From Shewanella sp. CG12_big_fil_rev_8_21_14_0_65_47_15 (GTDB lineage Bacteria; Pseudomonadota; Gammaproteobacteria; Enterobacterales; Shewanellaceae), in the NCBI RefSeq assembly GCF_002783505.1, contig NZ_PFGL01000022.1, forward strand, positions 1 to 64,000: 64,000 nt of DNA. Direction: 5' to 3'. The position numbers and the translations under genes are program-made. Position 1 is the stretch's first letter. Each line of letters opens with the position of its first letter. A model generated the notes under the pieces. It worked only from the letters and a program-made list of their open reading frames with translations. It ran no database searches and had not been told where the DNA came from. Shown piece by piece: positions 43,872 through 54,519 of this stretch.

Positions 43872-44029
43872 GTTCCATTTCCTCGTCGAAAAAAATCGAC
43901 TATAGCCCGAACCGCAAAATTTCAGCAATTTATTTGTATTAAGGTTAAAAGCCATTAACCTTTTAGCGACAAGATAGGTTAATATGCGCCCGTGCTCCCT
44001 AACAACTTTAGAAACAGTGAATACCCCGA

Positions 44030-45250
44030 TTGGATAACGAAGAGTTTATCGAAAAGCGTAAATTTATCATAAAGCTAGGTAAGGCTTTACATAAATTTGG
44101 CACACCCGCTTACCGCCTTGAGACCCATCTACAAACCGTAGCGCGCACCTTAGGTATCGAAGGGTATTTTCTGATCTCGCCAACGTCGATGACCTTTGTA
44201 TTACAGCACGATACAGATCAAGAATATAACCATGTGGCTAGGGTTAAACCCGGCGAACTCGATTTAGGCTCACTCGCCCGCACCGATGAGTTAGTCGATG
44301 AACTCACCTCGGGCAAACGCACCCTAGCCGAAGCCTTAGACAGGCTCGAAGAAATCGCCAATAAGCCCAACCCCTATGGCCCAGCATTAACCTGTTTTTC
44401 CTTTGGCACCTCGGCAGCGGCCTTCGCCATGTTGATGGGCACAGGTTGGAACGATGTGTTTTGGTCGGGCCTATTGGGCCTGCTCGTTTACGGCTTTGTT
44501 TACCGTGCCGAACGTTCGGCCCGCATGACCGAAGTGCTTGAGCCCTTTGCCACTATCACCTGTGCCATTGCCGCCTGCGCCATTGCCCGCATCGACCCTA
44601 ATATCAATATTCCCGTGGTGATCCTCTCCTCGATCATCATCTTTATTCCCGGTTTAGCCTTAACCTTAGGCCTAGCAGAACTGGCCGCACGGGATTTAAT
44701 CTCGGGCACGGCGCGGATTATGGATGCTAGTATGCTGTTGTTTAAGCTGTACTTTGGTGCTGTATTGGGAATGGCAATTGGTAAAGCCTTCTTTGGCGAA
44801 GCCATTCATATCGAGCCTGAGGGGTTGCCCCGCTGGGCAATTTGGTCGGCGGTGCCCATTTTATCCATGGCACTGGTATTTATCTTCAAGGCTCGCATGC
44901 AGGATTCCCCTTGGGGTGTGCTCGCGGGGATTGTCGCCTTTTTCTCCGCCATGCTGGGCGGGCATTTTTTTGGTGACTCTGTGGGGATTTTCTTTGGCGC
45001 CCTCGCGGTGGGGATTTACTCTAATCTATTCGCCCGTTGGATGAAGGCACCCGCCTCTATCGCCCTGCTGCAGGGGATAGTTATCTTAGTGCCCGGCAGC
45101 AAAACCTATATCGGTCTCAATGCGCTTATTTCGGGCGAGACTATGCTCAACCAATCCCATATTGGCTCGCAGATTTTTTTAATCTTTATGTCGCTGGTCG
45201 CTGGGCTTATCTTCGCTAACGTAGTCGTCCCTCCCAGACGAACATTATAG
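44030..45250 (+). CDS. ThrE-type threonine/serine exporter family protein
   Basis: A 406-residue protein with a cytosolic N-terminal domain (about 1-115; ThrE family, older name DUF1212) and about ten membrane segments in two groups. The family ThrE exports threonine and serine in Corynebacterium, and bacterial homologues may be fused or split into two genes; this one is fused. The start is TTG (MDNEEFIEKR) with no clear ribosome site, so translation may be weak. An in-frame GTG was not found. Confidence 0.85.
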   Translation: MDNEEFIEKRKFIIKLGKALHKFGTPAYRLETHLQTVARTLGIEGYFLISPTSMTFVLQHDTDQEYNHVARVKPGELDLGSLARTDELVDELTSGKRTLAEALDRLEEIANKPNPYGPALTCFSFGTSAAAFAMLMGTGWNDVFWSGLLGLLVYGFVYRAERSARMTEVLEPFATITCAIAACAIARIDPNINIPVVILSSIIIFIPGLALTLGLAELAARDLISGTARIMDASMLLFKLYFGAVLGMAIGKAFFGEAIHIEPEGLPRWAIWSAVPILSMALVFIFKARMQDSPWGVLAGIVAFFSAMLGGHFFGDSVGIFFGALAVGIYSNLFARWMKAPASIALLQGIVILVPGSKTYIGLNALISGETMLNQSHIGSQIFLIFMSLVAGLIFANVVVPPRRTL

Positions 45251-45431
45251 AATAATATGATCCTGGCTGGAGCCCATGCCCAGCCTCATTCTTAAGTTAA
45301 CCTTAAGTAAAATCATCATCTTATTAAAATGTTTCCTTGACTAATTGCCACTTCCTGTGTGTTATTAAATTGTGAATTGCAGAGTGAGTACCATACCGCT
45401 GCAGTCGTCAATTCCATGGGAGTGAGCTTTT

Positions 45432-47075
45432 ATGCAGAAATTCATCCAGTATGCATCCATCCTATCTTGTTGCATTGGCAGCCTAGTGAATGCCGCTAGA
45501 GCAGATGATGCCGCTGACACTGCCCCCCCAAAAAACCAAGAGGCTAAAAACGTCAGCAAGATAGTGGTCGTGAGTAATCCTATCTTTGATGAATCCGCTC
45601 CCGATGCCTTTTTTATTCACCGCTGGGCAAACTACCTGCATATCAACACCAAAGAATATGTCGTTCGAGATAGGCTTACCTTCGGTGAAAATGACCAAGT
45701 CACTCAAAAAGATCTCGACGAATCCCAGCGCCTGCTACGCGCCGAACCCTATATACGTGACGCTAAGATTTATATTGCCGAAAAAGATCCGCAAGCCGAC
45801 ATCACCCCAGAGGATGAATCCATCGTCATCGAGACTTGGGATAACTGGTCATTATTGCCCACGGCGAGTTTTAGCAGTTCGGGAGGCGATACTCGATACT
45901 CCTTCGGGATAAAGGAAGATAACCTGCTCGGCACTGGAATACGCACACGCTTAAAGTACCAGTCCGATGAGTCGCGCACGGGTTACAAATTTGCCTTTGA
46001 AGCCCCGATCAGCATTATCGAACATGGCATAGTCGCCGCCGAGTTTTACGATAACAGTGATGGTCAAGCCAAGCATGTGTATGTGAGCAAACCCTTCTAC
46101 GCCCTTGATACACAAACCATGTACTCGGCGGAGTTTTTGGACGATAGTCGTATCGATACCCTGCGGCAGAACGGCCAAGATCTGAATGAGTTTGCACACA
46201 ATGTCGACTACCTCAACCTGCAGTACGGTTGGTTAATTGATAAAAATACTGACAATCTTTCCCGCGTCATCACAGGCTTTACCCAAGATAAACATGAATT
46301 TGCCAACTTAGACACCTACCCCAACTCTGATCTTCCGCAGGACAGGGACTTTATGTACCCTTGGGTGGCCTATGAGTTTATCCAAGATGATTTTCATGTA
46401 CTGAACAATGTCCATCTGATCACGAATAACGAGGACTTTAATTTAGGCTGGTATCACTATCTGCAATTTGGCATAGAAACCAAAGATATAGAGGATAACA
46501 GCCCCCTCGGCTACCACCTTAAGTGGCAAAGTAGCGCGGGCTACAAGTTTGACGATCAGCTGTGGTTATTCGAAATGGGCGGTTCCAGTACGTTAGGGAC
46601 GACTCAAGCAGACACCTATCAACTCAATGCCCAAGCCGAGTACTTCTACCAAATCAACCCCAAATGGACAGCCTATGGTAAGGCATGGGGCAGCATCTCT
46701 GACAATACTTATCTGGATCTCACAACGGGGCTGGGGGATGAAACCGGCGTGCGCGGTTATCCCAACGATTACCAACTGGGTGACAACCAATGGTTACTGA
46801 CCGCCGAAATACGCAATTACCCCAATATTAATCTGTATCAGTTGGCAGAGCTTGGTTGGGCCGTTTTTACCGATCTCGGTCAAGCCTCGGGTGGACCACT
46901 GGCCGAAAATAACGAAGTCAGTGGCCCACTCGGCAGTGTTGGGATAGGAGCCCGCATTTACTCTTCACGCTCCAGCTACGGCAACGTCGCCCATATTGAC
47001 TTTTCCATCCCCTATACCGGGGGAGATTCGGTGAATAGCTGGGAATGGCGTGTCTTAGTCAAACAAAGCTTTTAA
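45432..47075 (+). CDS. Omp85-like outer-membrane barrel protein
   Basis: A 547-residue outer-membrane protein with a signal peptide ending around NAARA. An N-terminal POTRA-like region spans about residues 40-130, followed by a 16-strand-type barrel. The loop-6 motif VRGYPNDY is the mark of the Omp85 superfamily (BamA, TamA, FhaC use VRGF/Y). It ends in Phe. Family is sure, but it is not BamA: it is far shorter and lacks five POTRAs. Cargo is unknown. No clear partner gene is adjacent. Confidence 0.85.
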   Translation: MQKFIQYASILSCCIGSLVNAARADDAADTAPPKNQEAKNVSKIVVVSNPIFDESAPDAFFIHRWANYLHINTKEYVVRDRLTFGENDQVTQKDLDESQRLLRAEPYIRDAKIYIAEKDPQADITPEDESIVIETWDNWSLLPTASFSSSGGDTRYSFGIKEDNLLGTGIRTRLKYQSDESRTGYKFAFEAPISIIEHGIVAAEFYDNSDGQAKHVYVSKPFYALDTQTMYSAEFLDDSRIDTLRQNGQDLNEFAHNVDYLNLQYGWLIDKNTDNLSRVITGFTQDKHEFANLDTYPNSDLPQDRDFMYPWVAYEFIQDDFHVLNNVHLITNNEDFNLGWYHYLQFGIETKDIEDNSPLGYHLKWQSSAGYKFDDQLWLFEMGGSSTLGTTQADTYQLNAQAEYFYQINPKWTAYGKAWGSISDNTYLDLTTGLGDETGVRGYPNDYQLGDNQWLLTAEIRNYPNINLYQLAELGWAVFTDLGQASGGPLAENNEVSGPLGSVGIGARIYSSRSSYGNVAHIDFSIPYTGGDSVNSWEWRVLVKQSF

Positions 47076-47349
47076 TGCGTTTGTTTATCAGAATACCGCC
47101 CTCAAAAGCGTCCATAATGGGTCTCAGAGGTAGGCTAGGATCCTAAAGTTTAAAGTTAAGTGTATTTAGAATCTGGTATCGCATCCAATACAATTGAAGT
47201 GTATTTATTTGGCTCTATGAGCCGCACTCCTAGTGCTATATCCACGGTATTTATTGAAGCATACATGGTGACCGTGTTAAGTGTTCATATATAAGCTGTC
47301 TATATTAAGGTTTAATGGCATTGATTGAAGCCAATGCCTAAGTGAGTCA
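47076..47349. other. Intergenic region between the Omp85-like gene and the integron cassettes
   Basis: About 270 bp with no gene on either strand. The region looks like the edge of the cassette cluster. It has no T-tract terminator, no clear promoter and no repeat beyond small AT-rich stretches. Confidence 0.5.
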
Positions 47350-47416
47350 ATAGTTCTACCGCCGCAAGGAACGAGCGTCCGGCGCCGCGGGCGCGTTGTA
47401 AATTGCTTTGTTATAG
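47350..47416 (-). other. Degenerate attC-like site after the HNH cassette
   Basis: Read on the minus strand, the HNH gene's stop codon lies within CTATAAC (47410-47416), the position of an attC R'' core site. A GC-rich inverted stretch follows (CGCGGCGCCGG). The matching GTTRRRY end is not seen, so the site looks decayed or truncated, probably at the edge of the array. Confidence 0.5.
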
Positions 47417-47983
47417 CTTTGCATATTCTCTTGCTATTGTTTGATTGATTTCAGTTGCCAACGTTTGAGCCTGACGCATAGTACGTTGTACCGACTCCCA
47501 ATTAGCCCAGTGCTGTTCCCATTTTTCTTTGCCAACCACCGATTCAAAATCAACTTTTGTTGGTTCTAGCCACGTCTCATATTTTTGCAGTTTTTCGATG
47601 CGCTGCTTAAGATCTGGTACGCCTCTAGATTTTGGTGACAACTTTGCAGAGCTTGTAATCCAAGCATGCCAAGGCTTATTGCCCTTTGATTGATTGCACT
47701 TACCGCAAGCAGGAACCAAATTATGAATTTCGGAAATATAGCCCGTTGGCTTTTTGTTAAGCACTAAAGGCCGCAAATGATCCCACTCCGAAGCAGTAGC
47801 CCCACAGTATGCACATTGGAAACTATCGTGATCCATGCCAAGAATATCAAGGGCGTTTTTCACTTGCTCATTTGTCGGAACAATTATCGGAATAATTGAG
47901 TTTATAAATGAATTGGTGATGCTTGACGATCTTCCCGTGATTTTCATCGGGGTTGGCATCCTGAATAATGATAAGTAATCCAT
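47411..47983 (-). CDS. HNH endonuclease, integron cassette gene
   Basis: A 190-residue protein. An HNH nuclease domain lies at about residues 55-105: CAYC (C57, C60), WDHL (D68, H69), HNLV (H87, N88), and CGKCN (C93, C96), the treble-clef zinc form seen in McrA-like nucleases. A helical C-terminal region follows. Such nucleases act in restriction, homing or defence. Its start is 11 bp after an attC site, and its stop lies in another attC-like site, so it is a cassette. Start ATG 47983; ATGs at codons 9 and 13 are alternatives. Confidence 0.8.
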   Translation of the reverse strand: MDYLSLFRMPTPMKITGRSSSITNSFINSIIPIIVPTNEQVKNALDILGMDHDSFQCAYCGATASEWDHLRPLVLNKKPTGYISEIHNLVPACGKCNQSKGNKPWHAWITSSAKLSPKSRGVPDLKQRIEKLQKYETWLEPTKVDFESVVGKEKWEQHWANWESVQRTMRQAQTLATEINQTIAREYAKL

Positions 47984-47993
47984 AACTCTTCAG

Positions 47994-48077
47994 CTATAAC
48001 GCCCGCAGTGCGCGCGGCTTTGTAGTAGAGGCGTAACCGCAACGAAAAAGTCGTCGCCGTCCCTGTGATTGTTAGAC
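47994..48077 (-). other. attC recombination site between the Abi_C and HNH cassettes
   Basis: Core sites GTCTAAC (48077-48071, minus strand) and GTTATAG (48000-47994) bound an 84-bp sequence with imperfect GC-rich inner repeats. The stop codon of the upstream gene lies in the first core site. The second core deviates slightly from GTTRRRY. Confidence 0.72.
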
Positions 48078-48896
48078 TTTTTTGGCATGTAGCACCTCCA
48101 TAATAAAGACCACCAAAGTGTGTGCAGCGTTTACAACAAGCCGTGCCTCTGCAACCACAATACTTGGTGGGTTAGACCCGCGACCATGAGCAGAGCCAAT
48201 GTGAGACCGAAAGGCTCCTACACCATCAATGATTGAAGAAATACCTTTGAGCACTTTGTGCTGATCAGCAGCCAGAGTGACATCGGTATTCAGTGCAAGG
48301 TGTGGCTGAACGATGCCCCACAGTGGCATCACATTAAGTTTACTTGGCATAGCTAGCTCATCGAAGCTTTCGATGTAGAACTTTAGCGTGGCTTCGATAA
48401 TTGAACAGGATGCGGTTACTGATGTGTGAGGATCACTTTGGATATGCTCAATTGCTCTTTCAAATTCCTTTTCAATGGATGAGAAATCACCTGATCTCAG
48501 ATAGTCTTCCAGAGTTTTAGTAATTGGCGTTGAGCCAGCTTTCGTCACGTACCCATTGGTTCGATAGACCAGCTGATTTTTCGCTAATGCGGCATTAATT
48601 CTCGCTTGGCCTTCGGTCACCTTGGTTGATATTGGCCCACCAAAAAGTGAAGAGGAAGGCTCCTGATCCATGTACTCCTGAATCACAGCGCCTAGAACTT
48701 CTAGCGCATCAGTTTTAGGATCTTCGTTGCAGCGCTTTAGCCAGTTACTGCACTTCTTTTCGCAATTACCCTCAGGAACTTCCCCCGGCGCTCCACTTTC
48801 CATAAAGAGCGTATCAAGCTTGGAGTGACTGTGATAATGATCAGCGATTACAAAAGCTACTGCTCCGATAACCGAATTTGGTATTTGATGATTCAA
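48072..48896 (-). CDS. Abortive infection (Abi_C, HEPN-type) family protein, integron cassette gene
   Basis: A 274-residue cytosolic protein. The C-terminal about 120 residues match the Abi_C family: CSIIEATLKFYIE, then VLKGISSIIDGVGAFRSHIGSAHG, then LVVNAAHTLVVFI. The RSHIGSAH segment (R230, H237) is an R-x6-H motif of the HEPN superfamily, whose members are often RNases. These proteins stop phage growth by killing or slowing the cell. The start is TTG, supported by GGAGG seven bases upstream. The gene is flanked by attC sites on both sides. Confidence 0.78.
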   Translation of the reverse strand: MNHQIPNSVIGAVAFVIADHYHSHSKLDTLFMESGAPGEVPEGNCEKKCSNWLKRCNEDPKTDALEVLGAVIQEYMDQEPSSSLFGGPISTKVTEGQARINAALAKNQLVYRTNGYVTKAGSTPITKTLEDYLRSGDFSSIEKEFERAIEHIQSDPHTSVTASCSIIEATLKFYIESFDELAMPSKLNVMPLWGIVQPHLALNTDVTLAADQHKVLKGISSIIDGVGAFRSHIGSAHGRGSNPPSIVVAEARLVVNAAHTLVVFIMEVLHAKKV

Positions 48897-48912
48897 ACTC
48901 GAGCCTCCGTGA

Positions 48913-48993
48913 ACCTAACGCTCGCCACAAACTTGAGCAACGTGTTGCAAGTGGAGCGTCCAAAGGGAGCGATGCTGACTGGCCTTGTTAAAG
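48913..48993 (-). other. attC recombination site between the HEPN and Abi_C cassettes
   Basis: On the minus strand CTTTAAC (48993-48987) and GTTAGGT (48919-48913) are a perfect RYYYAAC/GTTRRRY pair bounding 81 bp with imperfect inverted inner boxes. The HEPN gene's TAA stop lies within the first core site, as is common for cassettes. Confidence 0.8.
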
Positions 48994-49500
48994 GTCACCT
49001 TTAGCAGCCTCATACATTTCATTGTTAAGCTTTTCCAAGACCTCGTCAGTTAAACCGTACTTAATTGCAGCAGATCTAGAAATCGGATTTAAAATGTCTT
49101 CAACTGAATTAAATAACTTAATAGCATCTTCAAGTTCACTTATCATCTTGTTTCTGCCAGCTTCGTTTATAAAATCTAAAGCACGGTCGAAAAAATAGGC
49201 ATGAGCCAACCAGTTTCTTTTTTGCAATGCCAGTGAGAGAGCAATTTCAATATCGCTATCGAGTACACTAATTTCTTTTATTGCACCCAGCAGGCGGCCC
49301 ATAGTTTTCTTCGACAATGCGTCATCAAATCGGTCAAAATCTGCTTCCCATTTTTCACGACTTTCAAACTTAGGCACGTTTTCCTTAAAAAAATCAAAGA
49401 CAATAAGTAACTGAACTATTGATTGCTCAACACATTGTGCTCGGTACATTGCGAGGCCAAAGTATGCGTAGACTTCTTTGCAGTGTTCAGACGTATCCAT
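48988..49500 (-). CDS. HEPN-like protein, integron cassette gene
   Basis: A 170-residue, mostly helical protein (start ATG 49500, AAAGGTT upstream). KRNWLAH places Arg95 and His100 as an R-x4-H motif typical of HEPN nucleases, in the usual place near the end of the core helices; ALQKRNWLAHAYFFD also resembles MAE-type HEPN proteins. I therefore infer an RNase or a toxin-like protein. A TTG-started longer frame exists (to 49545) but is less likely. It is the first gene in the cassette run and its stop is inside an attC core. Confidence 0.7.
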   Translation of the reverse strand: MDTSEHCKEVYAYFGLAMYRAQCVEQSIVQLLIVFDFFKENVPKFESREKWEADFDRFDDALSKKTMGRLLGAIKEISVLDSDIEIALSLALQKRNWLAHAYFFDRALDFINEAGRNKMISELEDAIKLFNSVEDILNPISRSAAIKYGLTDEVLEKLNNEMYEAAKGDL

Positions 49501-49562
49501 CGTAACCTTTAACAGTGTATTACCCGCTCTTCTAATAAAACCCAACCAGAATAGAGTTAGAC

Positions 49563-50007
49563 ATGGGAATAAATGAGTAAATAATGTAATTATGCCAATA
49601 AGTTAACATCAGCATCAGTGGTCTATCAACATTTTTCATCCAGAAAAATCGAGACCTTATTTACCGAGAAGCGTTTTAGCTCGGTAAATAGTATTAGGCA
49701 AAGTGAAAGAGTAATAATTTCAGTTAATTGCATAAGCACCAAGCAAAAAACGATACCTTTAGTTTCGATTTGAAGCCAGTTTATAAATTTCACATTATAC
49801 CTGTGTGTCTAAACAGCGCTTGAGGTTGGAACGCTCCGAGATTTCCTCTTACTAAAGAAATACAGTAAGGTGTAACAAGACTTTGTTTCTTTTGACCAAA
49901 AACTACCGTAAATCAGCTTCTTAGAAAACGTAGAGAGGGTTCGACTCCCTCGCTACGTTTTCAGGAAATTTCAGCTAACGCAGTGCCGACCTACCCTTAT
50001 TTTTATA
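49563..50007. other. Gene-poor region with two conspicuous hairpins
   Basis: No protein is supported here. TATTTACCGAG (49658-49668) pairs with CTCGGTAAATA (49680-49690) across an 11-nt loop. A second hairpin at 49924-49962 is described separately. AGCTAAC (49973-49979) resembles an attC core by sequence only. The stretch lies between the cassettes and the 59-codon small ORF. Confidence 0.5.
49924..49962 (+). other. tRNA T-arm-like minihelix hairpin
   Basis: GAAAACGTAG (49924-49933) pairs with CTACGTTTTC (49953-49962), and inside it GAGGG (49935-49939) pairs with CCCTC (49947-49951) around TTCGACT, which fits the tRNA T-loop consensus TTCRANY. One A:G mismatch separates the stems. The shape is that of an acceptor plus T-arm minihelix without D and anticodon arms. 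It may be a tRNA remnant left by an integrating element. Confidence 0.45.
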
Positions 50008-50187
50008 TTATTGCCACTTTTCATACGCCAAATAACCTAAGTACGCGACTAAAAGAATACGAATTACGATGCTGTAATTGGAATAACCCAGTTTAATTTC
50101 ACTTTGCTCATACTCAACCCAGACTGTTATATCAGGCTGTGCTAAATCAAGTGCTAAATCAGGCCATCCATAGTAAATCAATAACAT
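50008..50187 (-). CDS. Small single-pass membrane protein (59 codons)
   Basis: An ORF of 59 residues from ATG 50187 to TAA 50008-50010. It begins MLLIYYGWPDLALDLAQ, has an acidic middle, and ends in a hydrophobic helix (SIVIRILLVAYLGYLAY). AGGGG lies five bases upstream, within the hairpin at 50191-50208. Codon use is normal. I do not recognise it. It could be the end of a decayed gene, since the neighbourhood looks disturbed, but it is intact as read. Confidence 0.45.
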   Translation of the reverse strand: MLLIYYGWPDLALDLAQPDITVWVEYEQSEIKLGYSNYSIVIRILLVAYLGYLAYEKWQ

Positions 50188-50190
50188 AAT

Positions 50191-50213
50191 GCCCCTAATT
50201 ATTGGGGCTTTTT
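50191..50213 (+). terminator. Plus-strand terminator-like hairpin
   Basis: GCCCC (50191-50195) pairs with GGGGC (50204-50208) and is followed by five T residues. The T-run is on the plus strand although no plus-strand gene lies just upstream. It also overlaps the ribosome site of the minus-strand small ORF. Confidence 0.6.
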
Positions 50214-50240
50214 ACTTATCAGATATCACTAGAGGTAGTT

Positions 50241-50714
50241 TTAAGCTCGGTACACGCTACAACTAAAACAACCAGGATTGGCATTGTGAATTTGGATATA
50301 GCTCACTTCAGCATTTAAAAACTGCTGACGAACCGCATTTGCTAATCCCGTACCCTGTAAAGTCTCGGCGTGCACCATAGCGTGATTGCAATTATAAGCT
50401 CTGATGGATAGTAATCTTGCCGTCAATATCTCTGGGATCTCATTCACATCCAACTCGGCTTGTTCAGCATTTTCTCGAATATAAATGGGGCCAGAAGCGC
50501 GATAAGGCGAATTGACATCGTGATATCTGAAAGGTACTAGTAGCACTCTCTCGCCGATCTCAGCCTCCTTCAGAGAGACCCGGCAAGGGTAACCAGGTTT
50601 AGTATCGGCAACCACCCATCTCGCATTGGCCTGTTCTAGTGCTCGATCACTTAACCCCATCAATCCAGAAAATTGACCCCGCTCTAGCGCTTTTATTTTG
50701 AAGTTTGTGTCCAT
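50241..50714 (-). CDS. DUF1203 family protein
   Basis: A 157-residue protein from ATG 50714 (MDTNFKIKALE). The run GLSDRALEQANARWVVADTKPGYPCRVSL matches what I recall for DUF1203, as does LLSIRAYN and the C-terminal HNANPGCFSCSVYR. The family's function is unknown. A longer frame to 50858 has no support. The gene is divergent from the symporter gene that begins at 50933. Confidence 0.85.
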   Translation of the reverse strand: MDTNFKIKALERGQFSGLMGLSDRALEQANARWVVADTKPGYPCRVSLKEAEIGERVLLVPFRYHDVNSPYRASGPIYIRENAEQAELDVNEIPEILTARLLSIRAYNCNHAMVHAETLQGTGLANAVRQQFLNAEVSYIQIHNANPGCFSCSVYRA

Positions 50715-50932
50715 ATTGGCTACCCGTCGGTTAAAAATACTATGATAGCCATTCGATAGTAGCGTACTCGCCGTTTTCGGAACTCTATCCTCAAAAATGA
50801 CAATCATTTCTTGCGCTATGGCGAACGACTCGCTAGCTTGAGCATGTCCCTGCAGCACGGTGAATTCTCATCATTTGGGCGTACCTTATTGCTAAACAAA
50901 TTCATGATAAAAATAACAATAGGCGCTTACCT

Positions 50933-52129
50933 ATGTGGCAAAAACTCAAACCCTACAAAGATTCAATCGTGCTGCTCAGTGCATTATTACTCGGCGGCGT
51001 GCTCGGTGTCGGCTGGCCAGAAGTGGCACTCAAGCTCAAACCGTTAGGGCAAATATTCCTCAATTTACTGTTTATGATTATCGTGCCCTTAGTGGCGATT
51101 AGTGTGACCTCCTCCATCGCCCGTATGACAGATCTCAAGAAGCTCGGTGCCCTGTTAGTGTCAATCATGGCGGTATCGATAGTGATGGCGATTATCCCCG
51201 CGGTTGGGATTATTGGGCTCGCCTTGTTTTTCGATCCCGCCCAAGGTGTCACCCTAGATCTTAAGCAAACCATAGGCGATACCGCAGGGACTATGGATTT
51301 CGTTGGCCTGCTAACCACCAATGATTTTTCAGGTTTATTGTCAAAATCCAATATCTTAGCTCTGATCATTATGTCAGTGATTGCGGGGATCGCGATTGGT
51401 CAATCGGGGGAGGATGGCAGAAAAGTCTCGGCATTACTCGACAGTTTTAATACCGTTATCATGAAGATAGTGTCGATCATTATGGTGGCGGCCCCCGTGG
51501 GACTGGGTGCCTATTTTGCCGCAACGATGGCGAGCCAAGATCCTCAACTTGTGGTCACCTTTGCCCGCGCCATTGGCCTATTTATGATCGCCTGCTTTAT
51601 CTATCTCACTGTGGGTTCCACCTTTTACGCTTGGCTTGGTGGCGGTGTGCACGGCATCAAACAATTTTGGCGCTTCGCCCTCGAACCCGCAGTGACGGCA
51701 CTCGGCACCACCTCCTCACTGGCCACCTTACCCGTCACCCTAAGAACCGCGCTAAAGATGGGTATTAAGCCCGAAATTGCCGATATCAGCCTGCCATTGT
51801 TGGTCAATTTAAATAAGGGCGGCGCCTCAATCATCACGGCCTTAAAAATCGTATTTATCTACTCGCTATTGGGATTAGATTTCACCGTGGATGTGTTTAT
51901 GGTGACCATTTTGATTTCGGTTTTGTCGGCCTTTATTATTGGTGGAGTACCGGGCGGTGCCTTCCTCGGGGAGATTTTTATCGTCACGACCTTAGGTTTA
52001 CCTATGGAGACTATCCCCATTTTAGTGGTGATAGGGGCGATTACCGATGCGCCTTCAACCGTGATCAACGTAGTACACGATCTCAACGCCTGCCAGATAG
52101 TCGAACGGCTAAACCGCAAACGGCTTTAA
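50933..52129 (+). CDS. Dicarboxylate/amino acid:cation symporter (DAACS family)
   Basis: A 398-residue membrane protein of the Glt/DctA fold. Visible: NLLFMIIVPLVAISVTSSIARM, the serine-rich HP1 hairpin TALGTTSSLATLPVT, NLNKGGASI in TM7 and the HP2 region with PGGAFLGEI, ending with DAPSTVINVV. It moves glutamate, aspartate or C4-dicarboxylates with sodium or protons; which one cannot be read. Start ATG; ribosome site is weak (AGGCGCTTACCT). Terminator downstream at 52147-52176. Confidence 0.9.
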   Translation: MWQKLKPYKDSIVLLSALLLGGVLGVGWPEVALKLKPLGQIFLNLLFMIIVPLVAISVTSSIARMTDLKKLGALLVSIMAVSIVMAIIPAVGIIGLALFFDPAQGVTLDLKQTIGDTAGTMDFVGLLTTNDFSGLLSKSNILALIIMSVIAGIAIGQSGEDGRKVSALLDSFNTVIMKIVSIIMVAAPVGLGAYFAATMASQDPQLVVTFARAIGLFMIACFIYLTVGSTFYAWLGGGVHGIKQFWRFALEPAVTALGTTSSLATLPVTLRTALKMGIKPEIADISLPLLVNLNKGGASIITALKIVFIYSLLGLDFTVDVFMVTILISVLSAFIIGGVPGGAFLGEIFIVTTLGLPMETIPILVVIGAITDAPSTVINVVHDLNACQIVERLNRKRL

Positions 52130-52142
52130 TGCTTTGTCTACT

Positions 52143-52180
52143 GATAAAAATGCCCAGACTAGGGTTTGGGCATTTTATCA
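52143..52180. terminator. Bidirectional terminator between the symporter and the kynureninase-like gene
   Basis: AAAATGCCCA (52147-52156) pairs with TGGGCATTTT (52167-52176) across ten bases. A- and T-runs on each side let it work in both directions between convergent genes. Confidence 0.82.
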
Positions 52181-52187
52181 TCCAACA

Positions 52188-53309
52188 TTATCGATTGGCT
52201 TTTATCACCGCCAATAACTGTTGAATATCGGCCTTATCGTTATAGAGATGGGGCGATACCCGGATCCCCAGACTGCGGGCATCGACGCTGATGTTCGCCT
52301 TAGCCAGGGCCGCCAGCACTTGCGCCTGCTGTTCGCCAAACTGCAATACCAAAGTACCACTGCGTTTATCCGCTTCCCGAGGTGACACTATCTCTTGATC
52401 TAACTCATCCATAATTACATCAAGCAGTAACTGGTTGCACTTGCGCAATTGCTCTGAGCCGATATCGGCAAAATAATGAATGCTGTGGGCGGCAATGGCA
52501 TAGGGCGCGATAGAAGGCGTCCCGCCCCAAAAGCGCAGTGCCGTTGGATGGTAACGAAAATCGTGGATATCGAACTCAAAGGGATTTTCATGGCTAAACC
52601 AGCCTACATCCTTAGGCTGACAACTCGGTAATATGTTGGGATTAACCCACAGATAGGCGGCGCCAGGACCCGCACAGAGCCATTTGACACTCGAGCCGAT
52701 TAAGAAATCAGGCTGTAATTTGGCCAAATTTAATGGAATGATCCCCGCCGATTGCGCCACATCCACCAAACTTAAACAACCTCGCTCCCGTGCCAGCGTG
52801 AATATTTCTGCCAGTGGCGCCTGTTGCCCCGTATTGGAATAGGCATGGCTGACAAACACCAGATCCACATCGGCACTCATATGGCTGTCCCACACATTAG
52901 GGTCGGTAATATCTAACCCCTTAGGGATAAAGCGCAGCTCACAACTGCTTGGCAACGCTTTTTTAAGGGCAAATCCCATGCTCGGAAAATCTTGCTCACT
53001 CATCAGCACAACCGCGTGTTCGCGATTTAATCGGTCGAGGGACATCACTATCTTGGTCAGCGCACTAGAGAGATTGACCTGGGGGCAAAAATCCTTCTGT
53101 TGACCATTAAACAGTTTAGATAGGGCAAAGGTAAAATCATCAATTACAGCCAGCCATTGACCCCAAGGTTCACGCCCTGAGTCCTGCCAAGGTGCAAAAA
53201 ATGCCTCCTTAAAGACTTGTTCTGTCGATTTAAGCGGCCGACCAACGGAGTGATTTAACAGATACCCTGGGCCTGCGAGGCAAAAATCCTTTTTAAAATC
53301 GCTAAACAT
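52188..53309 (-). CDS. Kynureninase-like PLP-dependent enzyme (class V fold)
   Basis: A 373-residue fold-type I PLP enzyme. DVAQSAG with D183 (contact to PLP nitrogen) and SSVKWLCAGPGAAYLW with K209 (Schiff base) fit the kynureninase/class V aminotransferase branch. Its stop-to-start distance from the PrnB-like gene is only four bases, so they are an operon and surely work together. Kynureninase cuts kynurenine to anthranilate and alanine. The actual substrate here may be a tryptophan-derived compound. Not clearly KynU: sequence is divergent. Confidence 0.8.
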   Translation of the reverse strand: MFSDFKKDFCLAGPGYLLNHSVGRPLKSTEQVFKEAFFAPWQDSGREPWGQWLAVIDDFTFALSKLFNGQQKDFCPQVNLSSALTKIVMSLDRLNREHAVVLMSEQDFPSMGFALKKALPSSCELRFIPKGLDITDPNVWDSHMSADVDLVFVSHAYSNTGQQAPLAEIFTLARERGCLSLVDVAQSAGIIPLNLAKLQPDFLIGSSVKWLCAGPGAAYLWVNPNILPSCQPKDVGWFSHENPFEFDIHDFRYHPTALRFWGGTPSIAPYAIAAHSIHYFADIGSEQLRKCNQLLLDVIMDELDQEIVSPREADKRSGTLVLQFGEQQAQVLAALAKANISVDARSLGIRVSPHLYNDKADIQQLLAVIKANR

Positions 53310-53313
53310 CGTA

Positions 53314-54519
53314 TTACCTTAAACTCTCTTTGAGTTTTTTAAGATCATCGTATCGAGTGCGAATATCCGCACGCTGGGCCGCAGCCCGTCTATCACGCAA
53401 CTTTTCTAGGGAGGCTAGCAATACATGTAACGGCGGGCCGCTCGCGGTCACTTTAGCTAAATGCTGCTGCTCCATGCTTGTCGAAGGCTCGGCAATATAT
53501 TTAGTCACTAACTCATTATGGTGCTGAATCGCAGTCTCGCCATGTAATTCACAGACTTCGATAAAGAGTTGTAGATTCGTTTGATACCATTCGTGGCTGG
53601 AATGCTCCATTGACTGTAAAAAATCATCCATCAAGTTAGGCCGACGCATACATTCCCGCAGGATCTGCTGATCCTCCGGCATCATGTATAAAAACTTATC
53701 CACTAGCATCTGCGAATAAGCCGATTCGTTGGCAAAACATAAGCCTAAGGTGAGATCGATAACATTGATACCCGCAAAGTCGCCGGCATTGGCACCACGG
53801 TAAACCACTGAGCCAACCCGATAGGGTTTATAGTATGGACGCACACAATAAAAGAAACGATCAGTATCTAACCGATTGAATAACTGCGTATTTGAATCGA
53901 TAACATCCTGTAATGCTTGCTTGGCAACCCGCAGTAAATCGTGGCTAATAGGGTGAGAAATACCTAAGGGCTGAATTTTTAACAAGGCATCTGCGGCACG
54001 TTTATAGGCCAAGATCCCCTTAGTGTTGTAATCCACAAACAGCTTTTCATCGGGCAAATCGGTAAAACGCTTGTAAATGCCCCTATGGGCGCGGTTATGG
54101 GTTGTCAGATGCGCGGTGGCAAAGCGCGGCGTAACCCCAATAGAGGCGCCGATGTGCATCGCCAATGCCGATGCTTCTGCCAGTGGCGAGGTGGTTTCCC
54201 GCGAGGGTTCGGTAATTTCATGGCGTCGGCAGGCGGCCATATACAACCCTACGTTACCGAGTAAATCGAAGGCACTGTCGAAGCCCTCATCGGTATTGCC
54301 TTCATCGAGCAAGGTTTTTATCAGTTCTCGCCCTTCACACTCCAGCCTCTGTTTCGCTTCATCGCCGATATTGAGCACATTGGCCCGATCCGTTTGTTGG
54401 TAATAAAGCCGTTCAAGCTCGGAGTTTAGCTCGACGAAACGAGTGCGGATCCACTCATCGAAGGCTTGGGTATTAAAGGTTGCAGGTTTCACTTGGGCAT
54501 CCTTGGTTGTTGTTATCAT
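53314..54519 (-). CDS. PrnB/IDO-like haem dioxygenase family protein
   Basis: A 401-residue all-helical protein of the PrnB (DUF1864) family, related to indoleamine/tryptophan 2,3-dioxygenase. PrnB of pyrrolnitrin synthesis rearranges chlorotryptophan. The block YRGANAGDFAGINVIDLTLG (240-259) resembles the substrate-loop region, and HGETAIQHHNEL (H326, H333, H334) is a good place for the haem ligand. It forms an operon with a kynureninase-like enzyme, which suggests tryptophan or indole turnover. No halogenase or prn gene is nearby, so pyrrolnitrin synthesis is unlikely. Confidence 0.82.
   Translation of the reverse strand: MITTTKDAQVKPATFNTQAFDEWIRTRFVELNSELERLYYQQTDRANVLNIGDEAKQRLECEGRELIKTLLDEGNTDEGFDSAFDLLGNVGLYMAACRRHEITEPSRETTSPLAEASALAMHIGASIGVTPRFATAHLTTHNRAHRGIYKRFTDLPDEKLFVDYNTKGILAYKRAADALLKIQPLGISHPISHDLLRVAKQALQDVIDSNTQLFNRLDTDRFFYCVRPYYKPYRVGSVVYRGANAGDFAGINVIDLTLGLCFANESAYSQMLVDKFLYMMPEDQQILRECMRRPNLMDDFLQSMEHSSHEWYQTNLQLFIEVCELHGETAIQHHNELVTKYIAEPSTSMEQQHLAKVTASGPPLHVLLASLEKLRDRRAAAQRADIRTRYDDLKKLKESLR

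Follow-up and report, generated by a model that had tools for sequence, protein, structure and literature searches.

The three-gene cassette array analyzed here is most probably an integron platform that has been left without its integrase gene and in which the attI site can still be recognized. It lies in a stretch of 64,000 nucleotides (hereafter, the window) and, as its sequence shows, retains remnants of such a platform, namely an attI region, a LexA-type box and attC sites, with no coding trace of intI found. The preliminary description had placed the cluster at 47350..49562; the start holds to within a few bases, whereas the end cuts through an attI region that had been missed. Its interpretation as a relic (CALIN) was correct as regards an integrase-free cluster but incomplete, since the array begins at an attI region of the type found on intI platforms. 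Because this attI is homologous to that of an intI-bearing platform, loss of intI from an integron would explain the locus better than would the insertion of cassettes at a random secondary site. The features of the locus are as follows.

47088..50190, strand not assigned: the entire block, to which nothing corresponds next to the flanks in genome G121
49924..49962, strand not assigned: hairpin-forming repeat, outer edge of a block common to several locus-A islands
49510..49860, minus strand: attI-type leader of ~200-350 bp, homologous to the intI-attI intergenic region (alignment, matches, maximum likelihood (ML) tree)
49801..49816, strand not assigned: LexA-type box CTGTN8ACAG, at -307 from the attI end
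48919..49512, minus strand: cassette 1, from the attI crossover to the G of attC1
48988..49500, minus strand: ORF1, 170 aa, helical, probable HEPN protein with an invariant RX4H motif (R95..H100)
48913..48993, minus strand: attC1, 42.0 bits, E = 1.1e-7 with model R1
48000..48918, minus strand: cassette 2, with a plasmid homologue (91% DNA identity) that begins exactly at 48918
48072..48896, minus strand: ORF2, 274 aa, Abi_C (PF14355), C-terminal HEPN fold with invariant R230..H237
47994..48077, minus strand: attC2, 24.8 bits, E = 0.0013 with R1
47354..47999, minus strand: cassette 3, 3' end decayed
47411..47983, minus strand: ORF3, 190 aa, HNH nuclease (PF01844), by profile match and invariant residues
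47354..47416, minus strand: attC3, decayed, 9.5 bits, E = 0.22 with R1 (filters off, 2.6 kb); R' GTTRRRY lost
47199..47284, minus strand: degenerate copy of the right end of the locus-A islands, with 6 substitutions and 1 insertion relative to a 40-bp probe

attC sites of the array

The attC covariance search that had been proposed for the spacers was performed using model R1, built from 27 attC sites hand-picked out of 40 scored candidates; the training stretches lay beside intI genes of the same genus, the window was excluded, and the R and L box pairs were set by hand. The sites attC1 and attC2 were the sole R1 matches at E<=10 in the 64-kb window, and 232,521 bases of control DNA yielded no R1 match at E<=1. 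Thus, the spacers described earlier as attC-like with paired cores score as attC sites in two cases, while the third, which keeps the left core and lacks the GTTRRRY end, is decayed. With its two R1 matches, the locus corresponds to a cassette array or CALIN in the sense of an integrase-free cluster of two or more attC sites. All three stop codons (TAA) were found within a YAAC core, as had been claimed. Both attC1 and attC2 fit R1 over the full length of the model, with some non-standard pairs; the structure prediction of the bottom strands gave no such result, the DNA of the three sites folding no better than shuffled sequences (z = 0.64, -0.46 and 1.10) and the folding energies of attC1 and attC2 not lying below those of shuffles. 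A home-made attC scorer was too unspecific on the window and was dropped in favor of R1, and Rfam at gathering scores gave nothing in the window.

The attI-type leader and its intI-linked homologues

The leader of the window ends in ...GGGTAATACACTGTTA, with the crossover between G49513 and T49512, so that by sequence the cassettes begin at the crossover of an attI with the boundary G|TTA. It aligns to positions -366..0 of the attI region of genome G026 with a score of 138 (the reference, the best of 50 shuffles scored against the copy G115d, was 39). In G026, the homologue of the leader sits between an intact intI and its cassettes (locus L110), and a second copy (L119) lies beside an intI split over two frames. 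For the G115d copy, the alignment reaches about 44 bp into intI, and a six-codon stub, MATSPF, is kept together with a LexA-type box. All the other leader copies were fetched as well, and no adjoining intI was found by tblastn at any of them. The start of intI was also sought, as 18 bases with up to 5 mismatches, in 27 leader contexts, one from the window and 26 from loci that had been fetched (G029 C83 was left out, and the second locus-A copy of G115 was not counted separately; in the context G029 C6, only 190 bp of contig were available upstream). It was found in three contexts, namely the two G026 copies and G115d, with shuffles matching in 2.4% of cases.

The LexA-type box occupies a similar position in all three sequences compared, -307 in the window, -320 in G115d and -323 in G026, where it is the box of the intI promoter. 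Such a box was present in 24 of 30 intI loci (fixed window) and in three of the 27 leader contexts, one being that of G026 with intI, as against 0.5% of shuffles. The core of the leader was found within 3 mismatches at 2667-2797 of the oriented locus in 8 of 30 intI-linked loci, G026 included. A promoter scan revealed no minus-strand site in the window leader.

Search for an integron integrase

The assembly of the genome that contains the window (4.72 Mb, 72 contigs, 99.99% complete) gave no match to the integron integrase model TIGR02249 over the cut-off. The best matches were XerC/XerD-like and other tyrosine recombinases, which were set aside as not being IntI. The absence of an integrase noted earlier therefore extends genome-wide within the 72-contig assembly. 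No remnant of intI was found near the array, either by tblastn or by a search for a start-codon stub, and the window locus differs from a complete integron in having no intI beside attI. Within the genus, IntI over the cut-off was present in 77 of 129 genomes, and in 6 of the 16 genomes that carry the leader (G015, G026, G069, G107, G119 and G121); the genome of the window, G115 with its five leader matches, and eight more of the 16 had none at the limit used.

Cassette genes and their predicted products

The three consecutive minus-strand ORFs of the preliminary description were confirmed. The 170 aa of ORF1 are counted from the ATG; an alternative TTG start at 49545 would give 185 aa and would extend the reading frame across the attI site. 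The RX4H motif of ORF1 is invariant across its relatives, a PDB sequence search gave no match, and the comparison of its fold with HEPN was not decisive, other fold families being possible. ORF2 combines a HEPN fold with an RX4-6H motif, as is characteristic of the HEPN superfamily. It resembles the HEPN/Abi_C abortive-infection proteins (PADLOC AbiJ PDLC02347) in the C-terminal HEPN fold and the invariant R...H, but differs from them in the N-terminal part (about residues 1-98), for which no convincing family match was obtained at the limits used. ORF3 matched PF01844 with 27.7 bits, above the cut-off, as expected of an HNH nuclease; the residues invariant in 23 sequences (C57, C60, C93, C96, D68, H69, N88 and N97) correspond to the HNH motif and four zinc cysteines. 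It is also similar to PtuB models of Septu PtuAB, and no PtuA ATPase partner was matched by the three cassette proteins (for ORF3, among the best 25 of 37 matches) or by the eight genes neighboring the array. Of the gene types proposed earlier (HEPN, Abi_C/HEPN and HNH), that of gene 3 stands and gene 2 is HEPN by fold, whereas gene 1 is a candidate HEPN protein by its motif only. ORF1 and ORF2 look like HEPN-type RNases and ORF3 like an HNH nuclease. The assignment of the genes to defence-type kinds is supported, and the cassettes probably encode intracellular anti-phage effectors, with ORF2 and ORF1 acting as HEPN RNases and ORF3 as an HNH DNA nuclease.

The origin of the genes as cassettes is borne out by gene 2, the closest plasmid homologue of which is located on pNi1-3 of Shewanella decolorationis (L248; 91% DNA identity). 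The match of this plasmid to cassette 2 has T48918, the base directly after the crossover G of attC1, as its first base and ends inside attC2, which characterizes cassette 2 as a mobile unit bounded by the crossover point. No attC was recognized by R1 in the pNi1-3 stretch with the gene-2 copy. At all eight genome loci with a relative of gene 1, neither gene 2 nor gene 3 was present in the flanks that were fetched, and the other two genes were likewise absent from the flanks of one plasmid locus with gene 2 and of one viral locus with gene 3. Among viral contigs, no relative of ORF2 and a single relative of ORF3 (L249, without an R1 attC) were found, and E. coli genomes gave no match to the DNA of cassette 1 at the limit used. 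Relatives of ORF1 (67-74%) were observed in enterobacterial chromosomes (L015-L017) without R1 attC sites; a gene of this type may also travel outside cassettes.

These data also bear on the idea of one conserved defence operon, the spacers of which resemble attC sites by chance. The common strand, the short spacers and the nuclease-like nature of all three products would agree with it; however, it is made extremely improbable by the E-values of attC1 and attC2 and by the relatives, for in none of the 10 fetched loci was a gene accompanied by either of the other two in the flanks covered.

Leader copies in the genus

The search for the leader in 129 genomes of the genus, in each of which up to six candidates were scored, gave 29 matches in 16 genomes, up to five per genome. 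Two of the matches adjoin intI (one of them frameshifted), one keeps six codons of it, and for the remaining 26 none was found. In 24 copies, the end differs by no more than 2 mismatches from GGGTAATACACTGTTA, and in almost every copy varied sequence then follows; the match in G029 C83 is without this end. Among the copies with an exact GTTA end, 24 in number, the letter after it was G in 16, T in 6 and A in 2, much as after the R' boxes of the 27 attC sites (G 13, T 9, A 5).

Comparison of the flanks sorted the copies into orthologous loci A, B and C. Locus A, with conserved flanks, has at least nine leader alleles (G120, G119, G015, G141, G077, G069, G115, G079 and the genome of the window), among which seven different first cassettes were found; loci B and C have at least four leader alleles each. 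The locus-A allele of the genome of the window lies at a contig end, with the leader about 4 kb from the flank, compared with the usual distance of about 0.7 kb. In the ML tree of 28 leaders (G029 C83 was dropped), groups were formed by the leaders of locus B (97/97), those of locus C (100/98) and the two G026 copies (100/100). The window leader was placed among most of the locus-A leaders (80/88, open fork), apart from the partner at its own locus in G107, and the locus-A leader of G119 fell outside the A group. For the most part, the leader copies group by chromosomal locus.

In 23 of the 27 contexts, the first ORF (>=70 aa) begins within 47 nt of the GTTA site. An R1 attC was detected downstream on the cassette strand in 17 contexts, in 13 of them at >=22 bits; among the 10 contexts with no downstream R1 match, three have under 800 bp of contig left. 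PADLOC matches were obtained for nine of 20 leader-downstream proteins chosen out of 39 listed (SduA, LmuA, ThsB-type TIR, Cap12-type TIR twice, Mrr/PDC-S02, PDC-S31, PDC-S42 and PD-Lambda-3_B), two of the nine belonging to the G026 loci with intI. Among the genes around the window array, one of eight matched, this being a small control, and the choice of the 20 proteins favored longer ORFs. The leader loci look like defence hotspots, and defence genes in integrons were reportedly described in 2025. From the comparison of the copies, we infer movement of cassettes at the leaders. It should be noted that in G115 two leaders stand in tandem, 1.7 kb apart (L107, 2278 and 3972), with an R1 attC further on after each.

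Integrase-free cassette loci without the leader

Application of R1 to 14 genomes gave 3 to 26 attC sites in each. Outside the leader set, 20 attC loci were considered, two of which end at about 0.9 kb, at contig ends. In 17 of them, nothing matched the leader core when 3 mismatches were allowed, two had a 3-mismatch core match of the kind seen in shuffles (shuffle mean 0.28 per locus), and one had a different attI-type core. Because 19 of the 20 loci are without the leader core, most attC clusters in these genomes are leaderless, and the leader as a general feature of integrase-free cassette loci was ruled out. The twentieth locus (L235, G120:C1:2192000-2198500) is a three-attC array behind the core CTAATAGAATGTTA, in a genome with no listed IntI, and is possibly another platform that has lost intI.

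Secondary (attG-type) genomic sites can take cassettes, and the window array could likewise be an ordinary CALIN that arose at such a site, the repeat upstream being unrelated or merely a favored target. The 20 loci above are in line with this explanation, as is the abundance of integrase-free cassettes in the genus, where CALINs are reported from 59 genomes and single attC loci, 115 in all, from 41, according to the accessible part of PMC9229058. It is nevertheless quite unlikely for the window array, upstream of which the sequence shows homology over 366 bp to an attI linked to intI and contains a LexA-type box near the position of the intI promoter; moreover, at orthologous loci, cassettes start exactly at the end of the leader.

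Locus A and the ends of the window block

A search at locus A for a leader allele that is genuinely empty gave none. No R1 attC occurred in eleven leaderless locus-A alleles; five that were inspected (L202, L203, L205, L209 and L211) contained other cargo and no leader core, and an HNH-like protein was seen by eye among the cargo of L203. The left hairpin region is present in the leaderless alleles of G024, G121 and G151, the right end is present in these and in G002, and G029 has neither. Leaderless alleles with other cargo imply that locus A has also been filled by other means, so it is a hotspot that cargo has entered in more than one way.

The comparison with a strain lacking the insert, suggested at the outset, was performed with the close relative G121, which holds 44001-47087 and 50191-52200 at 89-91% identity. 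The two flanks belong to separate contigs there, and next to neither of them is there anything that corresponds to the intervening 3.1 kb. In G120, G024, G015 and G119, the flank genes are 635-648 kb apart (three of these distances were counted across the record start, the record being taken as a circle), which places the block at a rearrangement junction in its own genome, unless the assembly is at fault. The junctions 47087 / 50191 thus seem to join distant segments, barring assembly error. In G120 and G024, both flanks are about equally distant from the record start, a possible sign of an inversion around the origin. Insertion of the tRNA type was dropped from consideration, no tRNA being present in the window. 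In G121, a pair that by eye resembles a DUF1778/GNAT toxin-antitoxin pair, not cassettes, follows the same surface-antigen gene (L051, 3640-4300). Further along the window, 53314-54519 encodes a PrnB-type protein (PF08933, E = 2.4e-210), and 52188-53309 beside it a class-V aminotransferase related to kynureninase; the name PrnB comes from pyrrolnitrin synthesis.

The attI and the cassettes might also have been carried by a transposon-like or recombination-borne island with ends of its own, the integron activity being incidental. Consistent with this, the window block shares with locus-A islands 450 bp at the left and, in degenerate form, the right end, and it stands at the junction of segments that are distant in the four relatives. 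However, the right-end sequence occurs once each in 8 of 60 genomes, its position being that of locus A in six of them, and it is absent from the B and C loci that were fetched; the leaders at other loci have only the attI region in common. Such an island is accordingly regarded as unlikely.

The leader outside the genus and a possible supply of integrase in trans

In a wider search of 394 genomes of the order, where scoring was limited to two candidates in each genome, long leader matches were confined to the genus, and short ones (24-39 bases) were found in seven genomes of other genera. Short matches at the attI end occurred in G293 (two) and in G217, the latter 336 bases from a contig end. 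In G293, which belongs to another family of the order, intI is 83% identical to that of G026, and the attI linked to it lies 340 bp from the intI start and has four attC matches. A solo attI copy 0.9 Mb away agrees with it at 220 of 242 bases over the stretch that runs from -241 up to the crossover; no intI match was present there in 5.5 kb, and an attC was found about 1.8 kb downstream.

The platform may also be part of a distributed integron that is still in use, in which a single integrase, whether resident or acquired, would act in trans to insert and remove cassettes at several solo attI sites. Orthologous leaders with different cassettes, the number of leader matches in single genomes, IntI over the cut-off in six of the 16 leader-bearing genomes and the two attI copies of G293, one of them with its resident intI, point in this direction. 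On the other side, loci in the ten genomes with no IntI at the limit used, among them the genome of the window and G115, cannot be served by such an enzyme at present, and the captures of cassettes could predate the loss of intI; present use is therefore considered possible but doubtful. With the same reserve, it is tentatively proposed that, in the genus and at least one other family, attI has spread or persisted at several chromosomal loci away from intI, and that one integrase acting in trans loads differing, often defence-type cassettes at each of them.

For the window array, the reading as a platform without its integrase gene is preferred. In this scheme, an IntI now not found in the genome would have recombined attC with the window attI and so inserted the three cassettes; intI would then have been lost, leaving the attI region, the LexA-type box where the intI promoter had been, and three attC sites, two of them good and one decayed. 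The array would be immobile in its own strain unless an integrase arrives from outside. Within the clade, copies of the attI region would serve as landing sites that lie apart from the integrase, and the presence of the same attI at several conserved loci, with differing cassettes in orthologues, suggests that it has worked as such. Traces of intI were found in only three of the 29 genus matches; intI may have been lost at each locus, but some leader copies may equally have spread without it. If this is true, a cell with several mostly intI-less attI copies would have many short, independently placed cassette sites. Dispersed attI sites would then account for part of the integrase-free cassette clusters in the genus, and solo attI sites would probably escape searches keyed to intI and attC.

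Comparison with known systems

Among the literature matches listed, with most subscription papers and preprints outside reach, no description of dispersed attI copies was recognized. The attI usually adjoins intI, and delta-attI cassettes have been described for mobile integrons (accessible part of PMC12901181). These are similar to the window locus in having attI sequence away from intI; however, according to the same part of that source, a truncated attI replaces the attC of the cassette there, whereas the window has a long attI region before the array. With sedentary chromosomal integrons, the locus shares the attI core, the crossover position, the cassette boundaries, the attC type and the LexA-type box, and it differs from them in that no intI was found at the locus or in the genome, and in the short arrays at several loci. 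Xanthomonas CALINs, located at seven loci, are likewise integrase-free clusters at few conserved chromosomal positions, and no attI copy is reported for them in the accessible part of PMC12444791; here, in contrast, an attI precedes the cassettes, and these differ between orthologous sites. The CALINs and SALINs of the genus, in the accessible part of PMC9229058, are similar to the window array as attC cassettes without a neighboring intI and are common, and attI copies away from intI are not mentioned in that part. The window array differs from them in that it starts at an attI homologous to that of an intI-bearing platform.
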